This document shows positions 7,379-19,690 of a stretch of 64,000 nt of DNA, piece after piece; position 1 is the stretch's first letter, and each line of letters opens with the position of its first letter. A model generated the notes under the pieces. It did not search any database. It saw only the letters and a list, made by a program, of their open reading frames with translations, and was not told the DNA's origin. The stretch is from the NCBI RefSeq assembly GCF_018613855.1, contig NZ_JAGGPK010000009.1, positions 1-64,000 of the forward strand, read 5' to 3'. The position numbers and the translations under genes are program-made. The stretch is from Arthrobacter sp. ISL-30. GTDB lineage: Bacteria; Actinomycetota; Actinomycetes; Actinomycetales; Micrococcaceae.

Positions 7379-8311
7379 TTAGGCTTCCTTTCGTGCCGGG
7401 CGCTGCGGGGGCCAGAAATCGCCCGATACAGCGGCCTCGGCTCCGCCTTCGTTCGGCGGATCGAGCAGTTCGGCGCGGATCTCCTCCGCGAGGCGGTACG
7501 TCATGTCGCGGCGCCATTCCGGCAGGCCGTGGATGTCGTCGTGGTAGAGGGCTTCGGGGACGGCGTCGTCGATTGCGGCGGCCAGTTGCGACGCGTCCGG
7601 GAGGTCTCCAGCCGTGAATCGGAGTTGGACCGGACGCCGGGTGGCGGCAGTGATGGTGAGCACCAGGGCTTTCTCACCAGCGTTTGGGCCTCCCAGCCTG
7701 CCGATCAGCAGCACGCCGGAGCGTCCGAGGTTGCTCAGTGACAGGCGGCGAAACGCGGCCTTCGAAGCCAGCGCCGAGGCGGGAAGGTGGATGCTCCGCA
7801 GGAGTTCCCCGGGGGCCAGGACGTTGCGTCCGTCCCCGACCACGAACTCGGCTACAGGAACGGTCCGGCTGGAGCCGCCGGGGCCCAGGATGGTTGCGGT
7901 GCCATCCAGTCCAGCGCAGAGCGAAATCATGGGTCCTGCCGGGAGGGAGGTGCAGAGGTTGCCGCCCACGGTGGACATGTTCCAGACTTTGAAGGACGCC
8001 ACGAAGGAGTCGCAGCAGGGCCGGACAAGGTCAAGGCCGGGCCACCCATACTCCTTGACCGCATACTCCCGAACAACCGGCTGGTCCGGCAGGGCGTACA
8101 ACTCGGCAATGGTGGCGGTTGCGGCCAGCTCGATCCCTTCGGGCCCCACTTTGATGGCCGGCCATCCTGCGGAGCCGAGATCCAGCAGCCGTTTGAGCAC
8201 TGCACTGCCGTAGGAAAACAGCATGGTGCCCCCGGCCAGCCACGCGTCCCCCTCGCGCCAGTCTGCGGGATCGGTCGTGGGCACTACGGCCTCAATGGTG
8301 TTCATGTCCAT
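7379..8311 (-). CDS. FAD-binding subunit of xanthine dehydrogenase
   Basis: This 310-residue protein has the CoxM-type FAD domain: the LAGGT motif near residue 26, STVGGNLC at about 112-119 for the FAD diphosphate, and the C-terminal CO-dehydrogenase flavoprotein domain with RFTAGDLP. It passes electrons from the iron-sulfur clusters to NAD+ or another acceptor. Two in-frame ATGs exist. The one at 8311 follows AGGAGG by 4 bases; the one at 8305 would overlap the xdhC stop as ATGA. Either start is possible. It is the middle gene of the operon xdhC - FAD - fused subunit. Confidence 0.88.
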   Translation of the reverse strand: MDMNTIEAVVPTTDPADWREGDAWLAGGTMLFSYGSAVLKRLLDLGSAGWPAIKVGPEGIELAATATIAELYALPDQPVVREYAVKEYGWPGLDLVRPCCDSFVASFKVWNMSTVGGNLCTSLPAGPMISLCAGLDGTATILGPGGSSRTVPVAEFVVGDGRNVLAPGELLRSIHLPASALASKAAFRRLSLSNLGRSGVLLIGRLGGPNAGEKALVLTITAATRRPVQLRFTAGDLPDASQLAAAIDDAVPEALYHDDIHGLPEWRRDMTYRLAEEIRAELLDPPNEGGAEAAVSGDFWPPQRPARKEA

Positions 8312-9546
8312 GGGCCCTCCTGAAGGGACTGGGTGGTCTGAAAGGACGGGCTCGCTTCGGGTTCCGGGCGGTGGATTGGTCCCTTTCCCTCTTTCAACGG
8401 CTTCAGCGACGCTCCACTCCTCGAGGAGATGATTTCGGCGGTGATGGAAACGGCAACCTCCGCAGGCGTGACGGCGCCCAGGTCAAGGCCGATCGGCGAA
8501 TGCAGCCGGGTCAGGGCCTTCGGAGCCATGCCGCCGGCCAGCAGGGATTCGATCCGCTGGCGGTGGCTGCGCCGGGATCCCATCGCGCCCACAAAAGCCA
8601 GGTCCAGGCCAAGGGCAGTTTCCAGCAAAGGAACATCGAACTTGGGGTCATGGGTGAGAATGCAGACGACTGTTCTCGCGTCCAGGCGCCCTTCGGAGGC
8701 CTCGGCTGCCAGGTAACGGTGAGGCCAGGCCATGACGACTTCATCTGCAGTTGTGAAGCGGCCCTGGCCGGCAAAGGCCGGGCGGGCGTCGCACATCGTC
8801 ACCCGGTAGCCCAGAAGCTTACCGGCAGGGATGAGTGCGGCCCCGAAATCGTTGGCACCAAAAACAATCATCCGGGCCGGCGGAAGCCTGCTCTCGACGA
8901 ACAATGAAATGGGTTCCGGGGTTGTCATGGGCTCGATGGCCGGCCCGCTTCCGGGAGCGCATCCCTCGACAGGAGCCAGGCGAATTAGCCCGGCGCGCCC
9001 GCCGCGCAATAGCGATTCGAGCTGCGGCGCAGCTGACCGCAACAGGCGCGGATCGCCGTCGAGGATCGCGGCAAGCTCCGGCGACTCGCTGGCCCGGAAG
9101 CGGGCGGGATCCGCGACGACGATTGCGCCGCCCCGTACGGCGTCCATCCTCCGGATCAGGGCGACAGCATCCGTGGCGCCATGGTTCCGGAGCCGGTCCA
9201 GCATCGCAGGGTTCAGGTGACCGTCGTCGGCACCAATGGGCTGGATGTGGACGTCCAGCTCGCCTCCACACGTAAGTCCGACGGCGAACGCGTCCTCGGC
9301 ACTGTAGCCGAACTGCTCGCGCCGACTCCCGCCATCGCGCAGGGACTGGAGGGCCGCCTCTACCACGGCTCCCTCGACGCAGCCGCCGGAGAGGCTGCCC
9401 AGTACCTCGCCGTACTCGGACACGAGCATGGACGTACCGAGCGGACGCGGCACCGAGCCGCCGGTGGCGACGATGGTAGCCACGGCACAGCGTTGCCCCG
9501 AAACCGCAGGACGCCAGCTGTCCAGCGCAGACATCAAATCCAACAT
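8302..9546 (-). CDS. xdhC: XdhC/CoxI family molybdoenzyme maturation protein
   Basis: The N-terminal XdhC_CoxI domain reads GGSVPRPLGTSMLV followed by GSLSGGCVEGAVV. The C-terminal half has a Rossmann motif (MIVFGANDFGAAL) and the ending HSPIGLDLGAVTPAEVAVSI. XdhC proteins bind the molybdenum cofactor, help its sulfuration and insert it into the apoenzyme. The frame runs to 9762, but ATG at 9544-9546 has a purine-rich AGGGGG nine bases upstream and starts right before the domain (414 aa). First gene of the xanthine dehydrogenase operon. Confidence 0.9.
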   Translation of the reverse strand: MLDLMSALDSWRPAVSGQRCAVATIVATGGSVPRPLGTSMLVSEYGEVLGSLSGGCVEGAVVEAALQSLRDGGSRREQFGYSAEDAFAVGLTCGGELDVHIQPIGADDGHLNPAMLDRLRNHGATDAVALIRRMDAVRGGAIVVADPARFRASESPELAAILDGDPRLLRSAAPQLESLLRGGRAGLIRLAPVEGCAPGSGPAIEPMTTPEPISLFVESRLPPARMIVFGANDFGAALIPAGKLLGYRVTMCDARPAFAGQGRFTTADEVVMAWPHRYLAAEASEGRLDARTVVCILTHDPKFDVPLLETALGLDLAFVGAMGSRRSHRQRIESLLAGGMAPKALTRLHSPIGLDLGAVTPAEVAVSITAEIISSRSGASLKPLKEGKGPIHRPEPEASPSFQTTQSLQEGPWT

Positions 9547-9915
9547 GGCGACAGTCCCCCTGTCCCTGAGGTCCTGGCCGGGATGCCCCGACCGGGGCGA
9601 TGCACGTTCTTGCCCAATATTCTCATTCCTTGGAGGTGCTGGGGTTACGCGATGATTGCAGTTCACCGCGAAGTGGGTTTTGGTGTTGGTGGGACCGGGG
9701 CGGGACTTCACCTTCCCGCCCCAGTCCCTGGGAGACGCTGCTCCCGGTGGCGGCTCCGCCACGCCCCGCCGCCCGCCGTCGTCGGCCGCCGCCGGTCCCC
9801 CAACAGGACCGGCGGGCCGGTGTACAACGGCGAACGCCTATTCAATGCGGTGACTTGGCAGGACCGCCGGCAGAAGGGCCGGTCCGGGAGACCGGCCGCT
9901 GTGGACCGGCCGCGG
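9547..9915. other. Gap between azgA-type gene end and xdhC start
   Basis: No gene is supported in these 369 bases. The part near xdhC should carry its promoter; a palindrome GCCCCG-AC-CGGGGC sits at 9585-9598. The rest, downstream of the AzgA-type permease gene, holds several GC-rich hairpins, the last being the one at 9877-9897. Long open frames across it are antisense artefacts. Confidence 0.5.
9877..9897 (-). terminator. GC hairpin after AzgA-type permease gene
   Basis: GGCCGGTC - CGGGA - GACCGGCC is a perfect 8-bp stem just past the stop of the permease on its strand. No T tract follows, so termination is inferred from place and stability only. Confidence 0.4.
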
Positions 9916-11448
9916 TCAGGCGCCCATGAGCGCGTTGATGGGGCCGCGGGCGAAGTAGATGATGAACCCAACGGTCACCACCCACATGAGCGGGTGCACC
10001 TTCTTTGCCTTGCCGGAGGCGGCGCCGATGATCGCCCAGGTGATGAACCCGACGCCGATGCCGTTGGCGATGGAGTAGGTCAGCGGCATGGTCACGATGG
10101 TCAGGAACGCCGGCAGCGCCACGGAGAACTTGGTGAATTTGATCTCCCGGATCTGCGCCATCATCATGGCACCGACTACCACCAGGGCCGCCGCAGCTAC
10201 TTCAAGCGGAACCACCGAGGTGAGTGGCGTCAGGAACATCGAGCCCAGGAAGAGCACTCCCGTGACCACCGAGGCCAGGCCGGTGCGGGCGCCTTCGCCG
10301 ATACCGGCGGCGGAGTCGATGTACACGGTGTTGGAGGAGCCGGACGTCGCACCGCCGGCCACCGCCCCGAGGCCCTCGACGATGAATGCCGACTTCAGCC
10401 GGGGAAACGTCCCGTCCTTGTGGGCAACTCCCGCGCTCTTGGCCAGTCCGGTCATGGTGCCCATTGCGTCGAAGAAGTTGGTGAACACCAAGGTGAAGAC
10501 CAGCATGGTCGCTGCGAGCCCGCCGATCCTGGCGAAGGAGCCGAAGAGGTCGAACTGGCCCACGAGCCCGAGGTCCGGTGCCGATACCAGTTGGCCGGAG
10601 AGAACCGGGGTGTTCAGGTGCCAGCCGCCGGGGTTGTTCGGCCCGCCTGGTCCTATGTGCAGCACGGCCTCGACGACGGCGGCGAGGACTGTGGTTGCAA
10701 CAATGCCGATCAGCAGGCCACCCTGGACCCTGCGTGCCACGAGGATGCCCATGACCAGCAGTCCGGCGATGAAGACAAGGGTGGGGATGGAGGTAATGGA
10801 ACCGTCGGTGCCGAGCTGCACAGGCGGGCCGCCCTGGGTGCCGCGGACAAATCCAGAGTCGACGAAGCCGATGAAGGCAATGAACAGGCCGATGCCCACC
10901 GTGATGGCAGCCTTGAGCTCCTTGGGGACAGCCCGGAAGATCGCGGTCCGCGCACCGGTGACGCCGAAGAGGACGATCAGGATGCCGTTGATGACCACCA
11001 GGCCCATGGCCTCGGCCCAGGTGACTTCCTGGATCACGGCCACCGCGAGGAAGGAGTTGATGCCCAGCCCTGCGGCCAGCCCGAACGGCAGGTTCGCCAC
11101 CAGGCCGAACAGGATGGTCATGACGCCTGCGGTGAGCCCGGTAACCGCCCCCACCTGGGCCGCGGACAACCATCCACCAGCGACGTCAGTCGGAGCGTTA
11201 TCGGCAGCGAAGCCGCCGAGGATGAGCGGGTTGAGGATCACGATGTAGGCCATCGTGAAGAAGGTGACCAGGCCACCGCGGAACTCGCGGGCCAGCGTCG
11301 ATCCCCGCTTGGTGATCTGGAAGAAATTGTCCAGGAAAGAGCCCGACGCCGGTGGCCGGTTGCCAGGGGCGGTCCGGTTCGCGTTGGCGGTCCGGACGGC
11401 AGTGGGCTGCTGCTCAGCGTTGTTGTCCAGCATTGTCATTTCAGCCAC
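9916..11448 (-). CDS. AzgA-type NCS2 guanine/hypoxanthine permease
   Basis: This 510-residue membrane protein has about 12-14 hydrophobic segments and the AzgA-like opening REFRGGLVTFFTMAYIVILNPLIL. It also has DAMGTMTGLAK and GLGINSFLAV. The AzgA/PbuG/PbuO group takes up hypoxanthine, guanine or adenine by proton symport. It follows the guanine deaminase gene after only 6 bp, so the pair forms a guanine uptake and deamination operon. Three Met codons lie in the first six residues, so the exact start is uncertain. Confidence 0.9.
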   Translation of the reverse strand: MAEMTMLDNNAEQQPTAVRTANANRTAPGNRPPASGSFLDNFFQITKRGSTLAREFRGGLVTFFTMAYIVILNPLILGGFAADNAPTDVAGGWLSAAQVGAVTGLTAGVMTILFGLVANLPFGLAAGLGINSFLAVAVIQEVTWAEAMGLVVINGILIVLFGVTGARTAIFRAVPKELKAAITVGIGLFIAFIGFVDSGFVRGTQGGPPVQLGTDGSITSIPTLVFIAGLLVMGILVARRVQGGLLIGIVATTVLAAVVEAVLHIGPGGPNNPGGWHLNTPVLSGQLVSAPDLGLVGQFDLFGSFARIGGLAATMLVFTLVFTNFFDAMGTMTGLAKSAGVAHKDGTFPRLKSAFIVEGLGAVAGGATSGSSNTVYIDSAAGIGEGARTGLASVVTGVLFLGSMFLTPLTSVVPLEVAAAALVVVGAMMMAQIREIKFTKFSVALPAFLTIVTMPLTYSIANGIGVGFITWAIIGAASGKAKKVHPLMWVVTVGFIIYFARGPINALMGA

Positions 11449-11454
11449 CTGGCC

Positions 11455-11949
11455 CTAGTAGTCGATCCTGGAATCGAGGGTGTTCCATGTGTTGAATGGC
11501 TCGAGGATTCCCGGAGCCCTGGGGTCGCCCAGTTCCAGCTTGGCGACAGGCATGAGCGCGTCCCGCTGGTCATTCTCGAAGTAGTCGTAGAAGACGGCGT
11601 CGTCGAAGCCGACGGAAGCGGCGTCGTGGCGGTCAGCGGCGAAGACAACGCGGTCGATGCGTGCCCACAGGGCCGAAGCCAGGCACATGGGGCAGGGCTC
11701 GCAGCTGGTGTAGAGCGTTGCCCCGCTGAGGTCGAACGTTCCCAGTTCGCTGCATGCGGTGCGGATTGCGGTAACTTCGGCGTGGGCCGTGGGGTCGTTG
11801 CTCGCGGTGACGCGGTTGACGCCCTCGAAAGCCTGCCCGTCGGCGGTGACTACGACGGCGCCAAACGGACCGCCGCTGTTCAGGACGTTTGCTGTTGCCA
11901 GCTGTATGGATCGGGCCAGGAATTGTTCGGCCGTGACGGTGGTACTCAT
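11455..11949 (-). CDS. guaD: Guanine deaminase (cytidine-deaminase fold)
   Basis: This small zinc deaminase (164 aa) has the signatures HAEVTAI (His56, Glu58) and TSCEPCPMC (Cys86 and Cys89 as zinc ligands). FGAVVV at 29-34 and a C-terminal tail resemble Bacillus-type guanine deaminase. It converts guanine to xanthine in the cytoplasm and so feeds xanthine dehydrogenase. The start has AAAGGGAG seven bases upstream. Co-transcribed with the AzgA-type permease. A related nucleoside deaminase function cannot be ruled out, but the neighbours support guanine. Confidence 0.85.
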   Translation of the reverse strand: MSTTVTAEQFLARSIQLATANVLNSGGPFGAVVVTADGQAFEGVNRVTASNDPTAHAEVTAIRTACSELGTFDLSGATLYTSCEPCPMCLASALWARIDRVVFAADRHDAASVGFDDAVFYDYFENDQRDALMPVAKLELGDPRAPGILEPFNTWNTLDSRIDY

Positions 11950-12184
11950 GTTGCGACTCCCTTTGCTGGGAAGCCGAGTGACCTAGGCACAAACGGACGG
12001 GACTGCTCCAGTGCTTGGTTACCAGGCTTCAGCATTTGCGATGAAGGTTAAGTTGCGCCTGGTAGATAGCTTCCCGAAGTCCGGGTGCCCGCCTTTGGCA
12101 GTTAGAGATTAGCACCGGCTTTGTGACCAGCGCCATAGTCTTCCGGAAAAAAGTTTTCATCATGTGAGATTACCAACCAACGCG

Positions 12185-12251: not shown

Positions 12252-12280
12252 TTGACGGTGCCCTGGTCGCCCCCTACGCT
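12252..12280 (+). promoter_or_regulatory. Promoter of 8-oxoguanine deaminase gene
   Basis: TTGACG (12252-12257) and TACGCT (12275-12280) are separated by 17 bp, a good vegetative-sigma match. Transcription would begin near 12287, just before the conserved leader element. Confidence 0.65.
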
Positions 12281-12288
12281 GGGGCCAC

Positions 12289-12336
12289 ACCTGGATCAGC
12301 AGACAGGGCCTAACTGAGCTGGCTAGCGAAACTAGC
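12289..12336 (+). ncRNA. Conserved purine-gene leader element, copy 1 (candidate riboswitch)
   Basis: The first 35 nt (12289-12323) match the uricase leader at 17007-17042 at about 31 positions when one-base gaps are allowed. The conserved pieces are ACCTGG, CAGCAG, CAGGG, TAA and TGAGCTGGC. CCUG (12290-12293) can pair with CAGG (12304-12307), and CAGC (12297-12300) with GCUG (12318-12321); the crossed order makes an H-type pseudoknot. A small hairpin GCTAG-CGAAA-CTAGC (12322-12336) follows; there is no T tract. Control here, if any, could act on translation. Structure and ligand are inference. Confidence 0.5.
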
Positions 12337-12362: not shown

Positions 12363-13736
12363 ATGTCCCGGATACCAAACACATCGCCAGCCTCCCGCCT
12401 TTGGATCAGGAATCCCCTCGCGGTGTTTACTGCCAATGCGCTCGATGCCCGCGGTGGCATCGTGATCAGCGAGGGCAAAATCGTGGAGCTCATTCCTGCG
12501 GGAGGGCAGCCATCAGCGCCATGCAACGAGAACTTCGATGCCTCCGCCCACGTCCTGCTTCCGGGCCTGATCAACACGCACCACCACTTCTACCAGACCC
12601 TCACCCGGGCCTGGGGTCCCGTGGCCAACACACCCCTCTTCCCCTGGCTCGAGCGCCTTTATCCGGTATGGGCGCGCCTGACGCCCTCCAGCCTGGAACT
12701 CGCGGCCAAGGTAGCCCTCGCCGAGCTCTTGCTTTCGGGGTGCACTACAGCAGCCGACCACCACTACGTCTTCCCTGCCGGCATGGACGAGGCCATTGAC
12801 ATCGAGGTGGCCGTCGTGCGGGAGCTGGGGATGAGGGCAACGTTGACGCGTGGGTCCATGACGCTGGGCAAGGACGACGGCGGGCTGCCGCCCCAGTCCA
12901 CGGTCCAGTCGCCCGATGTCATCCTGGCGGACAGCGAACGGCTGATCCGCAAGTACCACGACGCCGGTGAAGGCGCCGTCATCCAGGTCGCCCTGGCCCC
13001 GTGCTCACCATTTTCCGTAACCAAGGAAATCATGGTGGAAAGCGCAGCACTCGCTGAGCGCCTCAACGTCCGGCTGCACACACATCTCGCCGAGACCATG
13101 GACGAGGAGGACTTCTGCCGGGAGATGTTTGGCATGCGCACCGTCGACTATCTCGAGAGCGTCGGCTGGCTTGGCAACCGAACCTGGCTCGGCCATGGCA
13201 TCCACTTCACCAGCGAGGAGATTTCCAGGCTGGGAGCCGCGGGAACCGGCGTCGCGCACTGCCCGACGTCGAACATGCGGCTCGCGTCCGGAACGGCACG
13301 CGTGCTGGAACTTGAGGACTCGGGAGTTCCTGTGGGCCTCGGGGTGGACGGCTCGGCGTCGAACGATGCTTCGAACATGATCCTCGAGGCACGGCAGGCG
13401 CTGTACCTGCAACGGCTGCGCTATGGGGCGGATGTCCCGGTGGAGCGGGCGCTGGGCTGGGCCACGCGAGGCTCAGCGACCGTCCTCGGCAGGCCGGACA
13501 TCGGCCAACTGGCGCCGGGCATGCAGGCGGACCTTGCCATGTTCACGCTGGATGACCTGCGCTTTTCCGGCAGCCACGACCCCCTCGCCGCCCTGCTCCT
13601 ATGCGGGGCCGACCGCGCTGATCGGGTGATGGTCGGTGGCACCTGGCGGGTGATCAACGGCGCCATTCCAGGCCTCGATGTCGCAGGGCTGGTGGCGGAA
13701 CATTCGGCCGCGGCTAGGAAACTGATCAGCGGGTAG
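12363..13736 (+). CDS. 8-oxoguanine deaminase-like amidohydrolase
   Basis: This 457-residue protein of the amidohydrolase superfamily has the metal motif NTHHHFYQTLTRA (His73/His75 pair), HTHLAETMDEE in the middle, WLGHGIHF, and the late GLGVDGSASND with the catalytic Asp. This pattern is shared by 8-oxoguanine deaminases, which turn 8-oxoguanine into urate, and by hydroxy-s-triazine hydrolases of the AtzB type. In a purine degradation island the first is far more likely. It would feed urate straight to uricase. ATG has AAGGA five bases upstream. Its mRNA leader shares a conserved element with the uricase mRNA. Confidence 0.85.
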   Translation: MSRIPNTSPASRLWIRNPLAVFTANALDARGGIVISEGKIVELIPAGGQPSAPCNENFDASAHVLLPGLINTHHHFYQTLTRAWGPVANTPLFPWLERLYPVWARLTPSSLELAAKVALAELLLSGCTTAADHHYVFPAGMDEAIDIEVAVVRELGMRATLTRGSMTLGKDDGGLPPQSTVQSPDVILADSERLIRKYHDAGEGAVIQVALAPCSPFSVTKEIMVESAALAERLNVRLHTHLAETMDEEDFCREMFGMRTVDYLESVGWLGNRTWLGHGIHFTSEEISRLGAAGTGVAHCPTSNMRLASGTARVLELEDSGVPVGLGVDGSASNDASNMILEARQALYLQRLRYGADVPVERALGWATRGSATVLGRPDIGQLAPGMQADLAMFTLDDLRFSGSHDPLAALLLCGADRADRVMVGGTWRVINGAIPGLDVAGLVAEHSAAARKLISG

Positions 13737-13791: not shown

Positions 13792-15036
13792 ATGAACCCG
13801 TCGAAGACCCCGGCAGAGATCCTCAACATTGGCGGCATCGAGGTTAGTATCTCGAGCCCGGACAAGGTGGTGTTTCCCGAGCCCGGGCTGACGAAGCTCG
13901 ACCTGGTGCGCTACTACCTGGCCGTCGCGGATGGCGCGCTGCGCGGCGCTGGCGGCCGACCCATGGTGCTCAAGCGCTTTCCGAAGGGCATCGACGCGGA
14001 GCCGTTCTTCCAGAAGCGCGTGCCCGAGAACCACCCCGCCTTCATCGACACGACGACGCTGCACTATGCATCCGGGACGTCGGCGGAGGAGGCCGTCATC
14101 CGGGATGCCGCGGGCCTGGCGTGGGTCGTGAATCTTGGATGCCTCGACCTCAACCCGCACCCGGTGCGCGCCGAGGACCTCGAGCACCCCGACGAGCTCC
14201 GCGTCGACCTCGATCCGATGCCGGGGGTCGACTGGTCCCAGATCGTCGACGTCGCGTATGTCGCGCAAGAGGTGCTCGACGACGTGGGACTCGTGGGCTG
14301 GCCGAAGACGAGCGGGTCGCGGGGACTCCACATTCTGGTGCGCATCGCGCCGCAATGGTCGTACCGCGACGTGCGGCTTGCCGCCGAGACCCTCGCCCGG
14401 GAGGTTGAAAACCGTGCTCCCGGTCTCGCCACCGCGCGATGGTGGAAGGAGGAGCGCGGCGAGAGTGTGTTCGTCGACTTCAACCAGAACGCGAAGGACC
14501 GCACTGTGGCGTCGGCGTACTCGGTCCGGCCCCTGCCCGATGCCCGAGTCTCGACGCCGCTCACATGGGATGAGGTCCGCTCCACCCGGCCGGAACAATT
14601 CACGGTGCCCACGGTGCTCGAGCGCTTCGCAGACGTGGGCGACTCCCACGCCGGCATCGATGACGCGGTGGGCACACTTAACGGGCTTCTCGCCCTGGCT
14701 GCCGAGCTCGGCCCAGCCGAGAAGCCGCCACGTGGCGGCGACGGCTCTGGCCGCCGGCAGTCGGTGATGCCGCTCATTGAGGTGGCCCGCACCAAGACCA
14801 AGCCTGAGGCGCTCGCCGCCCTCGACGAGTGGAAGTCCCGGCATGCGGACGTCGTCCCGTCCCTGCACCCAGCCGATGTGCTCGTCGACGGAATGCGGGG
14901 GTCGAGCTCGCTCTGGTACAGGGTGCGGGTGAACCTTCAGCACGTCCCCGAAGCGGAGCGTCCGCCGCAGGAGGAGCTCATCGCAGACTACGACCCATGG
15001 GCCGGCAAGGAGTGGCCGGGGCGCGCTGGGTCCTGA
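13792..15036 (+). CDS. ligD: LigD-type NHEJ polymerase domain protein
   Basis: This stand-alone polymerase/primase domain of bacterial LigD (414 aa) has FPEPGLTKLDLVRYY near residue 28, LKRFPKG at 60, the catalytic DLDP with Asp139 and Asp141, the nucleotide-binding TSGSRGLHILV near 170 and FVDFNQNA near 226. In non-homologous end joining it fills in broken DNA ends, preferring ribonucleotides, together with Ku and a ligase. Neither Ku nor a ligase domain is in this window, so the partners must be elsewhere. Probably leaderless. Its stop lies inside an 18-bp perfect tandem duplication. Confidence 0.88.
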   Translation: MNPSKTPAEILNIGGIEVSISSPDKVVFPEPGLTKLDLVRYYLAVADGALRGAGGRPMVLKRFPKGIDAEPFFQKRVPENHPAFIDTTTLHYASGTSAEEAVIRDAAGLAWVVNLGCLDLNPHPVRAEDLEHPDELRVDLDPMPGVDWSQIVDVAYVAQEVLDDVGLVGWPKTSGSRGLHILVRIAPQWSYRDVRLAAETLAREVENRAPGLATARWWKEERGESVFVDFNQNAKDRTVASAYSVRPLPDARVSTPLTWDEVRSTRPEQFTVPTVLERFADVGDSHAGIDDAVGTLNGLLALAAELGPAEKPPRGGDGSGRRQSVMPLIEVARTKTKPEALAALDEWKSRHADVVPSLHPADVLVDGMRGSSSLWYRVRVNLQHVPEAERPPQEELIADYDPWAGKEWPGRAGS

Positions 15037-16948: not shown

Positions 16949-16978
16949 TGTACAGCCCCCGGCACTGTGGGCTACTCT
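16949..16978 (+). promoter_or_regulatory. Promoter of the uricase gene
   Basis: TGTACA (16949-16954) and TACTCT (16973-16978) are separated by 18 bp. Transcription would begin about 16985, giving a 120-nt leader that carries the conserved element and a terminator. Confidence 0.5.
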
Positions 16979-17006
16979 TTCATCAATTCGTGGCGCAGGT
17001 CACGTA

Positions 17007-17066
17007 ACCTGGGAGCAGCAGGCAGGGTCGTAATGAGCTGGCATCAATGGATGCCGGCTCTTTTTT
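17007..17066 (+). ncRNA. Conserved purine-gene leader element, copy 2, with attenuator (candidate riboswitch)
   Basis: This is the uricase copy of the element at 12289-12323. CCUG (17008-17011) can pair with CAGG (17023-17026), and CAGC (17016-17019) with GCUG (17037-17040), giving a compact H-type pseudoknot. The same GCUG is part of the 5' arm of the intrinsic terminator that follows (17035-17066). Pseudoknot and terminator therefore exclude each other, which is the layout of a transcriptional riboswitch. A ligand-stabilised pseudoknot would let transcription go on into uricase. Pairing and mutual exclusion are seen; ligand control is inference, perhaps a purine such as urate or xanthine. 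Confidence 0.55.
17035..17066 (+). terminator. Intrinsic terminator inside the uricase leader
   Basis: GAGCTGGCATC and GATGCCGGCTC form an 11-bp stem (one G-U pair) with an AATG loop, followed directly by six T. It lies downstream of the proposed promoter and 41 bp before the uricase ATG, so it is an attenuator rather than the end of dctA. Confidence 0.8.
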
Positions 17067-17106
17067 GTTGGGTCGGCACCACCAGTCCACATCACGGAAG
17101 TTGGGA

Positions 17107-18021
17107 ATGACCATGAGTAACAACATCATTCTGGGCGACAACCAGTACGGCAAGGCGGAAGTTCGCGTCGTCAAAGTCACCAGGGACACCGAACGCCACC
17201 AGATCGAAGACCTGAACGTCACCTCGCAGCTCCGGGGCGACTTTGAAGCAGCCCACCTGCAGGGCGACAACGCGCACGTCGTCGCAACGGACACGCAGAA
17301 GAACACCATCTATGCCTTCGCCCGCGACGGCATCGGCTCCCCCGAAGCGTTCCTGCTCCGCCTCAGCGAACACTTCACCTCCAGCTTCGACTGGGTGACC
17401 GGCGGGCGCTGGGAGGCAGAGTCGTACGCCTGGGACCGCATCCAGGCACACGGCGCCTCGCATGACCACAGCTTCGTCCGCAACGGCCAGGAAGTCCGCA
17501 CCGCCGTCGTCGTCCGTGAGGGCGCCATCACCCATGTGATCTCCGGGCTAAAGGACCTGACCGTCCTGAAGACCACCCAGTCCGGATTCGTCGGATACCC
17601 GAAGGACAAATACACCACGCTCCCCGAGACCACGGATCGCATCCTTGCCACCGATGTCTCGGCCCGCTGGCGCTACACCCCCGGGCTGGACCTCGCGGGA
17701 ACTGATTTCAACAAGGCATATGAGGACATCAAGGGCCTCCTGCTCGAGGGCTTCACGGAGAACTACTCCCACGCCCTGCAGCAGACCCTGTTCGACATGG
17801 GCAAGAAGGTCCTGGCGGCTCACGCCGAAGTGGACGAGATCAAATTCTCCATGCCCAACAAGCACCACTTCCTGGTGGACCTCACGCCATTCGGCCTGGA
17901 CAACCCCAACGAGGTCTTCTACGCGGCGGACCGCCCCTACGGCCTGATCGAGGCCACGGTCCAGCGGGAGAAGACGACGGCGGCCCCGGCAGCCTGGAGC
18001 GGCATCGCCGGCTTCTGCTAA
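17107..18021 (+). CDS. pucL: Urate oxidase (uricase), cofactor-independent
   Basis: This 304-residue uricase has two tunnelling-fold halves. Recognised stretches are LGDNQYGKAEVRVVKV near the start, the DNAHVVATDTQKNTIYAFA region with the catalytic Thr, SGLKDLTVLKTTQSGFVGYP in the middle, and VDEIKFSMPNKHHFLVDL near the end with the Asn/His of the active site. It oxidises urate to 5-hydroxyisourate without metal or cofactor. ATG at 17107 follows GGAAG by six bases; another ATG at 17113 is possible. No hydroxyisourate hydrolase or OHCU decarboxylase gene is adjacent. Expression is probably controlled by the leader attenuator. Confidence 0.95.
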   Translation: MTMSNNIILGDNQYGKAEVRVVKVTRDTERHQIEDLNVTSQLRGDFEAAHLQGDNAHVVATDTQKNTIYAFARDGIGSPEAFLLRLSEHFTSSFDWVTGGRWEAESYAWDRIQAHGASHDHSFVRNGQEVRTAVVVREGAITHVISGLKDLTVLKTTQSGFVGYPKDKYTTLPETTDRILATDVSARWRYTPGLDLAGTDFNKAYEDIKGLLLEGFTENYSHALQQTLFDMGKKVLAAHAEVDEIKFSMPNKHHFLVDLTPFGLDNPNEVFYAADRPYGLIEATVQREKTTAAPAAWSGIAGFC

Positions 18022-18124: not shown

Positions 18125-18193
18125 ACATTGTTAGCCAGACATTGTTAGCCAGACGAAGGCGTCTGCCATGAACCAGGAAAGTCTGCCATGAAC
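18125..18193. repeat. Two small tandem duplications before the NCS2 gene
   Basis: ACATTGTTAGCCAG is repeated in tandem (18125-18138, 18139-18152). GTCTGCCATGAAC occurs at 18161-18173 and 18181-18193, duplicating the start-codon region. The upstream ATG (18168) opens a 7-codon frame, MNQESLP, whose TGA overlaps the real start as ATGA, so translational coupling is possible. Confidence 0.7.
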
Positions 18194-19690
18194 AGCAAGA
18201 AGAATTCCCGCATCGCGCCTGCCCGCACTGTACAGGCCCGCCCGGAGGACCAGCGCCTCTCCATCGGAAGCACGTTCGCCTACGGTTTCCAACACGTGCT
18301 CACCATGTACGGCGGCATCATTGCGCCGCCGCTCATCATCGGCGCGGCCGCCGGGATGTCGTCACAGGACATCGGCCTGCTGATCGCAGCCTGTTTGTTC
18401 GTCGGCGGCCTCGCCACGATTTTGCAGACGGTCGGCATTCCGTTCTTCGGCTCCCAACTGCCCCTGGTCCAGGGCGTCTCCTTTGCCGGCGTCTCCACCA
18501 TGGTTGCGATCGTCAATGGCGGCGGAGGCATCCGGGCCGTGTTCGGCTCGGTGATCGTAGCCTCACTGATTGGCCTGGCAATCACCCCGCTCTTCTCCAA
18601 GATCATCAAGTTCTTTCCACCGGTAGTTACCGGGACCGTCATCACCACCATCGGCCTGACGCTCATGCCGGTGGCCGCCAACTGGGCCATGGGCGGCAAC
18701 AGCAAAGCCCCCAACTACGGCAGCATCGCCAACATTGGCCTGGCCGCCGCCACCATGGCTGTGGTCCTGCTCCTGAGCAAGCTCGGCAACGCCGCCATCT
18801 CGAGGCTGTCCATCCTCCTGGCCATGGTCATCGGCACCCTCATCGCTGTGTTCACGGGCATGGCCGACTTCTCCAAGGTGGGCCAGGGCGAAATTGTCGC
18901 CTTCCCCACCCCCTTCGCTTTCGGCGCACCCACCTTTGAGGTCGCAGCCATCATTTCCATGTTGATCGTCATCATCGTGACGCTGACAGAGACGTCAGCG
19001 GACATCATTGCTGTGGGCGAGATCGTAGGCACCAAGGTTGACTCCAAGCGCATCGGCAATGGCCTGCGCGCCGACATGCTCTCCAGCGCGGTATCTCCCC
19101 TGTTCAACTCCTTCACCCAGAGCGCCTTCGCCCAGAACGTCGGCCTCGTGGCCATCACGGGCGTCAAGAGCCGCTTCGTGGTCAGTGCCGGCGGCCTGAT
19201 CCTGGTGATCCTGGGTCTCCTGCCGATCCTAGGCCGTGTTGTCGCTGCCGTTCCCACCCCCGTACTGGGCGGTGCCGGCGTCGTACTCTTTGGAACTGTT
19301 GCCGCCAGCGGCATCAGGACGCTGGCCAAAGTGGAGTATCGCAACAACATGAACCTCATCATCGTGGCCGCCTCGATCGGCTTCGGCATGATCCCTATTG
19401 CAGCCCCGAAGTTCTATGACCAGTTCCCGTCCTGGTTCTCCACCATTTTCCACTCGGGAATCAGCTCGGCGGCGGTCATGGCGATCGTGCTCAACCTGCT
19501 GTTCAACCATTTGAAGGCCGGAAACTCCGACAATCAATCGGTGTTCGTCGCCGGAACCGGACGCGTGGTCCGAGAGGAGGACATCGCCTGCCTGGCCAAT
19601 GGCGACCGCTTCGAGGATGGAAAGCTCATCGACGCCGACGGCAAGGAAGTCGCTGTCCAGGCGTCGGACAAACCGGCAGGGCACCACTAA
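18188..19690 (+). CDS. NCS2 uracil-xanthine/urate permease
   Basis: This 500-residue NCS2 permease has about 14 TM segments. The N-terminal FAYGFQHVLTMYGGIIAPPLIIG contains the QH motif of TM1, GTVITTIGLTLMPVA lies in the middle, and ETSADIIAVGEIVG is the TM8 substrate motif. Bacterial relatives (PucJ/PucK, UacT) import xanthine or urate by cation symport. The position after uricase supports urate or xanthine. Ribosome site AGGAAAG lies six bases before the start. It ends with a strong terminator at 19703-19736. Confidence 0.92.
   Translation: MNSKKNSRIAPARTVQARPEDQRLSIGSTFAYGFQHVLTMYGGIIAPPLIIGAAAGMSSQDIGLLIAACLFVGGLATILQTVGIPFFGSQLPLVQGVSFAGVSTMVAIVNGGGGIRAVFGSVIVASLIGLAITPLFSKIIKFFPPVVTGTVITTIGLTLMPVAANWAMGGNSKAPNYGSIANIGLAAATMAVVLLLSKLGNAAISRLSILLAMVIGTLIAVFTGMADFSKVGQGEIVAFPTPFAFGAPTFEVAAIISMLIVIIVTLTETSADIIAVGEIVGTKVDSKRIGNGLRADMLSSAVSPLFNSFTQSAFAQNVGLVAITGVKSRFVVSAGGLILVILGLLPILGRVVAAVPTPVLGGAGVVLFGTVAASGIRTLAKVEYRNNMNLIIVAASIGFGMIPIAAPKFYDQFPSWFSTIFHSGISSAAVMAIVLNLLFNHLKAGNSDNQSVFVAGTGRVVREEDIACLANGDRFEDGKLIDADGKEVAVQASDKPAGHH

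Follow-up and report, generated by a model that had tools for sequence, protein, structure and literature searches.

The 64,000-nt stretch of Arthrobacter sp. ISL-30 DNA analysed here (the window) belongs to a Micrococcaceae genome and contains a purine-breakdown region, and two of its leaders contain a small H-type pseudoknot that is probably the aptamer of an undescribed riboswitch class. We infer that it would bind an oxidised purine (8-oxoguanine and/or urate) and act as an ON switch. The initial annotation had named a candidate new riboswitch ahead of uricase; comparison of homologous leaders supports this with amendments i.e. many lineages carry an additional upstream hairpin, the element also occurs in Gammaproteobacteria, it comes in two subtypes, and the double change in its second helix amounts to a single event. 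By sequence comparison the pseudoknot is conserved and linked to purine genes, and in one subtype the 3' strand of the second helix (P2) doubles as the 5' strand of a terminator. The candidate would be new in its sequence and the details of its fold, and perhaps in its ligand, and of a known kind in being a riboswitch.

We refer to the elements ahead of uricase/permease and deaminase genes as the U type and the D type. The U-type element of the window (17008-17042, plus strand) can be read directly from the sequence: CCTG (17008-17011) pairs with CAGG (17023-17026) to form P1, and CAGC (17016-17019) pairs with GCTG (17037-17040) to form P2, in crossed order relative to P1 and within about 35 nt, as had been described initially. 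Its core recurs before uricase or pbuX in other Micrococcaceae. The second copy that had been claimed before another purine enzyme is the D-type element at 12290-12323 (plus strand), ahead of 8-oxoguanine deaminase, where CCTG (12290-12293) and CAGG (12304-12307) form P1 and CAGC (12297-12300) and GCTG (12318-12321) form P2, also crossed; loop 1 is one base longer in the uricase copy than in the deaminase copy. A gapped pattern run over the 4.36-Mb assembly (96% complete) matched at exactly these two places, with zero exact matches on the opposite strand and zero for a reversed control pattern. A third, weak match in this genome, to a search model (27.2 bits, L219), was read and judged to be due to chance.

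The uricase copy overlaps an intrinsic terminator (17035-17066, plus strand), i.e. a G+C-rich stem followed by a T run. The 11-bp stem (17035-17045 with 17050-17060) closes a 4-nt loop and is followed by six T (17061-17066), and its fold (-20.7 kcal/mol, z -5.63) was equalled by none of 200 shuffles. Because P2 and the terminator both use the GCUG at 17037-17040 they are mutually exclusive, which bears out the annotated pair of alternative folds. Folding also placed a hairpin, P0 (CGUGGC/GUCACG), at 16989-17004 on the plus strand, upstream of the U-type element. The D leader of the window, by itself, folds no better than shuffles (z -0.89).

The two genes predicted to be controlled are the 8-oxoguanine deaminase (12363-13736, plus strand; NF006055, 682.6 bits against a cut-off of 532) and the uricase, or factor-independent urate hydroxylase (17107-18021, plus strand; TIGR03383, 378.5 bits against a cut-off of 168.4, with 17116-18021 used in the profile search and the start codon being ATG at 17107 or 17113). 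Uricase is probably co-transcribed with a pbuX-type xanthine/purine permease (18188-19690, plus strand; TIGR03173). An NCS2 permease (Pfam Xan_ur_permease) is encoded on the minus strand at 9916-11448, and a plus-strand ORF over the same region (9181-12051), which has no Pfam or NCBIfam match, is probably spurious; it had served as a neighbour gene in the gene-order comparison. The window also contains xanthine-dehydrogenase-like genes and an XdhC-like gene (all under the curated cut-offs), a DctA-like transporter, an allantoin-permease-like gene, malate synthase and ureidoglycine aminohydrolase. The region between the deaminase and uricase genes includes a LigD-type primase-polymerase gene (13792-15036), and a LigD-type gene likewise lies between the deaminase and the U element in L033, L068, L093, L111, L117 and L118. 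The gap between the terminator and the uricase start (17066-17107) is about 47 nt shorter in the window than in several relatives; the uricase match starts 109 nt after the start of the element in the window, against 155-158 nt in L014, L023, L093, L115, L118 and L220.

Promoters were predicted by consensus match alone, within upstream sequence. The predicted promoter of the uricase-permease operon lies at 16949-16978 (plus strand; TGTACA at 16949-16954, 18 nt, TACTCT at 16973-16978; 7 of 12 consensus letters) and that of the deaminase gene at 12252-12280 (plus strand; TTGACG, 17 nt, TACGCT; 8 of 12). A similar pair of promoter motifs stands 29-30 nt ahead of eight of the nine U-type elements shown, and 43 nt ahead in L019; the best match is weak (fewer than 8 of 12 letters) in 72 of 156 leaders. 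With the start taken from the consensus match alone, the mRNA is predicted to begin at the element, which would lie near its 5' end; for the deaminase gene, the start would be a few nucleotides 5' of the D element. Since the predicted promoter of the window's deaminase leader leaves no room for P0, this hairpin may not be obligatory.

The order of parts in the element is an optional P0, CCUG (P1 5' strand), loop 1, CAGC (P2 5' strand), loop 2, CAGG (P1 3' strand), a linker, CUGA or AUGA, and GCUG (P2 3' strand), the last mostly followed by GC or GA; P1 has 4-5 bp and P2 has 4 bp in an element of ~35 nt. In the D type, loop 1 is GAU, loop 2 is AGA and CUGA(G) precedes the P2 3' strand; in the U type the corresponding letters are GGAG or AGAG, AGG and AUGA(G). 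These differences are consistent and are all in the loops and linker. The common D form is CCTGGATCAGCAGACAGG, 3-6 nt, then (A)CTGAGCTGGC; CCTGGATCAGCAGACAGG and CTGAGCTG are nearly invariant in the D type, and the linker from CAGG to CUGAG measures 4-7 nt over 92 non-redundant sites. The search patterns and models favoured the core, and the helix letters fixed by the first pattern are therefore weaker evidence of conservation than the loop letters that it left free (AU, A and ACU). Three loci stand apart in other ways. L081, from a Zhihengliuella metagenome-assembled genome (MAG), has a second, partial copy (CCTGGATCAGCAG) within 30 nt 5' of the full D element at ~528. The element-bearing deaminase loci L245 (G1267, 89% complete), which breaks one P1 pair, and L030 (a Paucimonas MAG), which looks Pseudomonas-like and may be contamination, are from low-confidence assemblies.

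A deaminase match lies at most 900 nt downstream on the same strand at 155 of the 180 collected sites, and a uricase match at 20. Of the other five sites, three are cut short by the end of a contig no more than 91 nt away; two are U-type elements, in Kocuria (L120) and Zhihengliuella (L081), that run directly into a pbuX-family permease. In Arthrobacter-type loci that are long enough, the gene after the U element is mostly uricase, with pbuX following it. Wherever the downstream gene was readable (177 of 177 sites) it was a purine gene in the sense orientation, which was the linkage that the initial annotation had proposed as a check. The element is, as is looked for in a riboswitch, a conserved structured leader linked to the genes of one pathway.

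Covariation in homologous leaders had been named as a second check, and it supports the helices modestly. A fifth P1 pair, which flanks CCUG/CAGG on the outside, is formed in 53 of the 92 non-redundant D sites, as C-G, U-A, G-C, U-G or G-U, and 72 of 20,000 permutations reached as high a count. It is unpaired in the other 39 sites and, because A-G mismatches form most of this remainder, we regard the pair as optional. P2 is CAGC/GCUG in 84 of the 92 sites and CGGC/GCCG in 8, with no mixed form even though the search expression permitted mixed forms. Reading of the sequences showed the G-C form in 19 genomes from a single family and in one genome from another (L213), and as the five proteins sampled fall into one clade of the protein tree, the change from A-U to G-C is counted as one event. 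In an alignment of 31 rows, which were our choice from 46 distinct D forms, three of the four P2 pairs and three of the five P1 pairs are invariant, and the 9-pair pseudoknot model has 97.1% of its cells paired compared with 19-54% for slid controls. The percentage paired, the number of double-changed cells and the covariation score were all above those of 500 shuffles; the stricter measures fell within the shuffle range, with two double-changed pairs (reached by 57 of 500) and five further pair types (112 of 500). An alternative register for P2, UCAG/CUGA, is 100% paired in the D rows, has no double changes and is broken in the U type; it was set aside, and kept only as a possible extra contact.

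The hairpin upstream of the element provides pairing of a different kind, as the P0 stems are of unrelated sequence among leaders. Of 94 representatives, 53 have a stem of 5 bp or more that ends no further than 4 nt upstream of the element; shuffles gave a mean of 14.2 and a maximum of 24, and shifting the same test upstream gave 12, 19 and 15 of 94. A stem of at least 4 bp next to the element is present in 130 of 152, against 42% in shuffles. The counts for the 5-bp stem pool D and U types, and sites within 45 nt of the end of a locus (e.g. L046 and L112) were dropped from them, as they were from the 92-site D counts. In the U type P0 is paired in all 16 aligned rows, with GU, AU and GC at one position; the 16 rows derive from 21 distinct leaders, three of the five omitted being identical to others after trimming. 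A DNA operator for a transcription factor, pseudoknot-like by accident, would likewise be short, highly conserved and near predicted promoters, a position that does not decide the matter. However, the AU to GC swap in P2, the adjoining stems of unrelated sequence, the uniform sense orientation and the overlap with a terminator at 22 of 22 sites all run counter to an operator. This reading, already disfavoured, was rejected on covariation and sense orientation, and we hold it to be highly improbable.

In the U type, the terminator of the window has counterparts at every one of the 22 sites long enough to show it: the P2 3' strand opens a hairpin which is followed, after GGCTC, by at least five T, so that at each site the platform and the aptamer helix are exclusive. 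The terminator stem is 100% paired over 16 rows, with two pairs that vary, one of them doubly (A-U to G-C in two rows). For the terminator stem and P0 jointly, the covariation score was reached by 6 of 500 shuffles, and the number of double-changed pairs (one) by 213 of 500. In the D type such a platform depends on lineage. A partner for the P2 strand near the ribosome-binding site is found in 43 of 74 non-redundant leaders, as GCC(A/G)GC in 24, GCTCAG in 7, CCAG only in 9 (a partner short enough to occur by chance) and a shorter form in 3 (one, L028, with a terminator), leaving 31 with none of these simple partners. Many Gammaproteobacteria have GCCGGC or GCCAGC, complementary to GCUGGC, directly after the Shine-Dalgarno letters; Arthrobacter types have GCTCAG or CCAG just ahead of them. 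The probability of GCYG pairing downstream was 0.87, compared with 0.74 for dinucleotide shuffles (83 representatives, three of them U type; Wilcoxon p 3e-9, with rows that are not independent). Taken singly, only 38.6% of the 83 reached a shuffle p of 0.1, all ten with a G-C type P2 falling short of it, and a duplex test of the D leaders gave a median p of 0.083. Support for the D-type platform is good in some lineages only.

We propose that a cis-acting RNA near the mRNA 5' end would fold into the compact H-type pseudoknot, often with a small hairpin ahead of it. In the absence of ligand, the P2 strand would join the terminator or the blocking hairpin and the gene would be off; the ligand would keep P2 within the pseudoknot, so that transcription or translation could go on, and the breakdown and uptake of oxidised purines would be induced. 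Both platforms are predicted to have the same sign i.e. the gene is on when the pseudoknot is formed. The same RNA structure could be read by a protein that binds the leader and governs termination or translation, as in control of the HutP or PyrR type, and the very high conservation of so short an element could mark a protein-binding site. Such control would require one and the same RNA-binding protein to be present in two phyla and would have to work through different expression platforms on one strand, an arrangement that is usual for riboswitch aptamers. We consider a protein-binding leader unlikely.

Pattern and covariance searches gave at least 180 distinct sites, in Actinomycetota and Gammaproteobacteria, and an exact scan that took one genome for each species (84,980 genomes) gave at least 118 stretches. 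Among the matches listed are the genera Pseudomonas, Stutzerimonas, Alteromonas, Marinomonas, Serratia and Rouxiella and, in the Actinomycetota, Arthrobacter, Pseudarthrobacter, Paenarthrobacter, Microbacterium, Kocuria, Zhihengliuella and a few others. With covariance model R1 at E 0.05, matches were obtained in 22 of the 297 genomes from the order to which the window belongs (17 clear on reading) and in 9 of 369 gammaproteobacterial genomes (2 clear); at E 0.01, three further samples gave 5 of 186 (4 clear), 4 of 148 (2 clear) and 5 of 24 (all clear). With model R2, also at E 0.01, the counts were 2 of 249, 19 of 150 and 13 of 264 (11 clear). The samples for R1 and R2 overlap, with some genomes in more than one search, and the covariance models cover the D type, R1 being weak for the U type. 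The R1 rows left out are G478:C33 and ten rows with E above 0.2, including G301:C33:18899, a position that fits the Kocuria U-type site. Weak model matches at L196, L214-L219, L228-L234, L237, L239, L240, L278 and L279 were read and judged to be chance.

The distribution of the element is patchy, not universal. In the Actinomycetota sample, 68 deaminase places above the cut-off lay in 66 of 296 genomes, and 67 of these plus one below it were examined (L121-L188, of which L168 comprises only 106 bases); among them, by regular expression and by R1 on 67 loci, the element was found only in the window's genome and one other of the same genus. Four of 68 plasmid records with a deaminase were examined. 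The Pantoea plasmid deaminase carries the element, and the Vibrio, Methylobacterium and Rhizobium loci (L242-L244) have none at the deaminase start; a 14.4-bit match in L242 away from the deaminase start was taken as chance. Besides Pantoea, a search of plasmids with the letters of the element returned two 18-letter Sulfitobacter matches (E 3), also taken as chance, and the exact pattern had zero matches in IMG/VR. The conserved letters (~30 nt) are near-identical across phyla, and the gammaproteobacterial deaminases are 67-74% identical to that of the window (full-length tree rows). In a deaminase tree of 45 chosen rows with a midpoint root, a fully supported branch sets the 32 element-bearing proteins from both phyla, together with three element-less plasmid proteins, apart from ten element-less Actinomycetota deaminases; Pseudarthrobacter and Zhihengliuella are among the named rows nearest to the window. 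This pattern suggests that the deaminase gene and its leader may have travelled together.

At gathering score no Rfam 15 family matched in the window, or at the element of a further 14 loci, the models searched including those of the purine family (guanine/8-oxoguanine/xanthine-II) and preQ1-I, and at relaxed thresholds (E up to 10) the two leaders gave chance-level matches only. No description of the element, or of its conserved letters, was found in the open-access literature, a scope that leaves absence from print unproven. Both results agree with the initial statement that no named riboswitch has this core. PreQ1-I is a ~35-nt H-type pseudoknot which shares its P2 strand with the expression platform and has OFF logic. 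The element described here is of similar size and H-type shape (crossed P1 and P2 of 4-5 and 4 bp), and might belong, unrecognised or in divergent form, to a known pseudoknot class of this sort, but its gene linkage is different, it is predicted to be ON, and the Rfam searches returned nothing above chance for it. We do not count it as a preQ1-I member, and regard divergent membership of any such class as extremely improbable. The U platform is the classical hairpin and T run of intrinsic terminator/attenuator leaders; unlike in plain attenuators, a conserved upstream pseudoknot competes for the 5' arm of the terminator.

The 8-oxoguanine and xanthine-II riboswitches, which are guanine-riboswitch variants, are described as three-stem junctions with a kissing loop (PMC9295807). 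Their ligands may overlap with that of the present element (8-oxoguanine, xanthine), but the element lacks a match to the three-stem fold. The Xanthine-I (NMT1) RNA, a sensor of xanthine and uric acid that works as an OFF switch, is described as a hairpin with an internal bulge, and controls purine-oxidation genes in Proteobacteria, in some genomes including 8-hydroxyguanine/guanine deaminase-like amidohydrolases (PMC7373994). The present element resembles NMT1 in its purine-oxidation genes and its occurrence in Proteobacteria, and differs from it in being an H-type pseudoknot, in being predicted ON and in its presence in Actinomycetota. That NMT1 looks different had been remarked at the outset: no NMT1 RNA (RF03054) was found in the window at gathering score, nor did either leader give an NMT1 hit, and one Pantoea cluster has both side by side. 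In this cluster, on plasmid pPAT9B01 of Pantoea sp. At-9b (L241), the element precedes the deaminase, and two divergent RF03054 RNAs (7900-7956, minus strand, and 8220-8275, plus strand; 39.0 and 45.6 bits) precede an oxygenase gene and an ABC substrate-binding gene. The layout hints that the D type would answer to something other than the NMT1 ligands, with 8-oxoguanine as the first guess.

The activities of the controlled genes (deaminase, uricase and permease) would consume, produce or import oxidised purines, and the deaminase product, going by the family name, would be urate, the substrate of uricase. A riboswitch for some other ligand (e.g. guanine, xanthine, a downstream product such as allantoin, or a non-purine) is conceivable, as gene linkage only narrows the ligand and as uricase and permease also serve urate derived from xanthine. 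Two observations argue for an oxidised purine instead: 8-oxoguanine deaminase is by far the commonest gene, and in Pantoea it is this gene that the element precedes and other genes that the NMT1 RNAs precede. We judge a ligand outside the 8-oxopurines to be unlikely. Within the preferred reading, an oxidised-purine riboswitch, differences between D and U types confined to loops and linker are what would be expected if the subtypes differ in specificity. A tentative extension, possible though rather doubtful as a whole, is a single class with two specificities, in which the D type would sense 8-oxoguanine and induce the deaminase, the U type would sense urate and induce uricase and permease by antitermination, and the class would have spread between phyla with the deaminase gene.

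8-Oxoguanine is a mark of oxidative damage. If the proposal is true, the element would be a further natural aptamer of very small size, present in many named Pseudomonas and Arthrobacter-type genomes among the matches listed, and an RNA sensor for oxidised purines that would be easy to test; a urate-responsive ON switch working by antitermination would also be useful for urate sensing.
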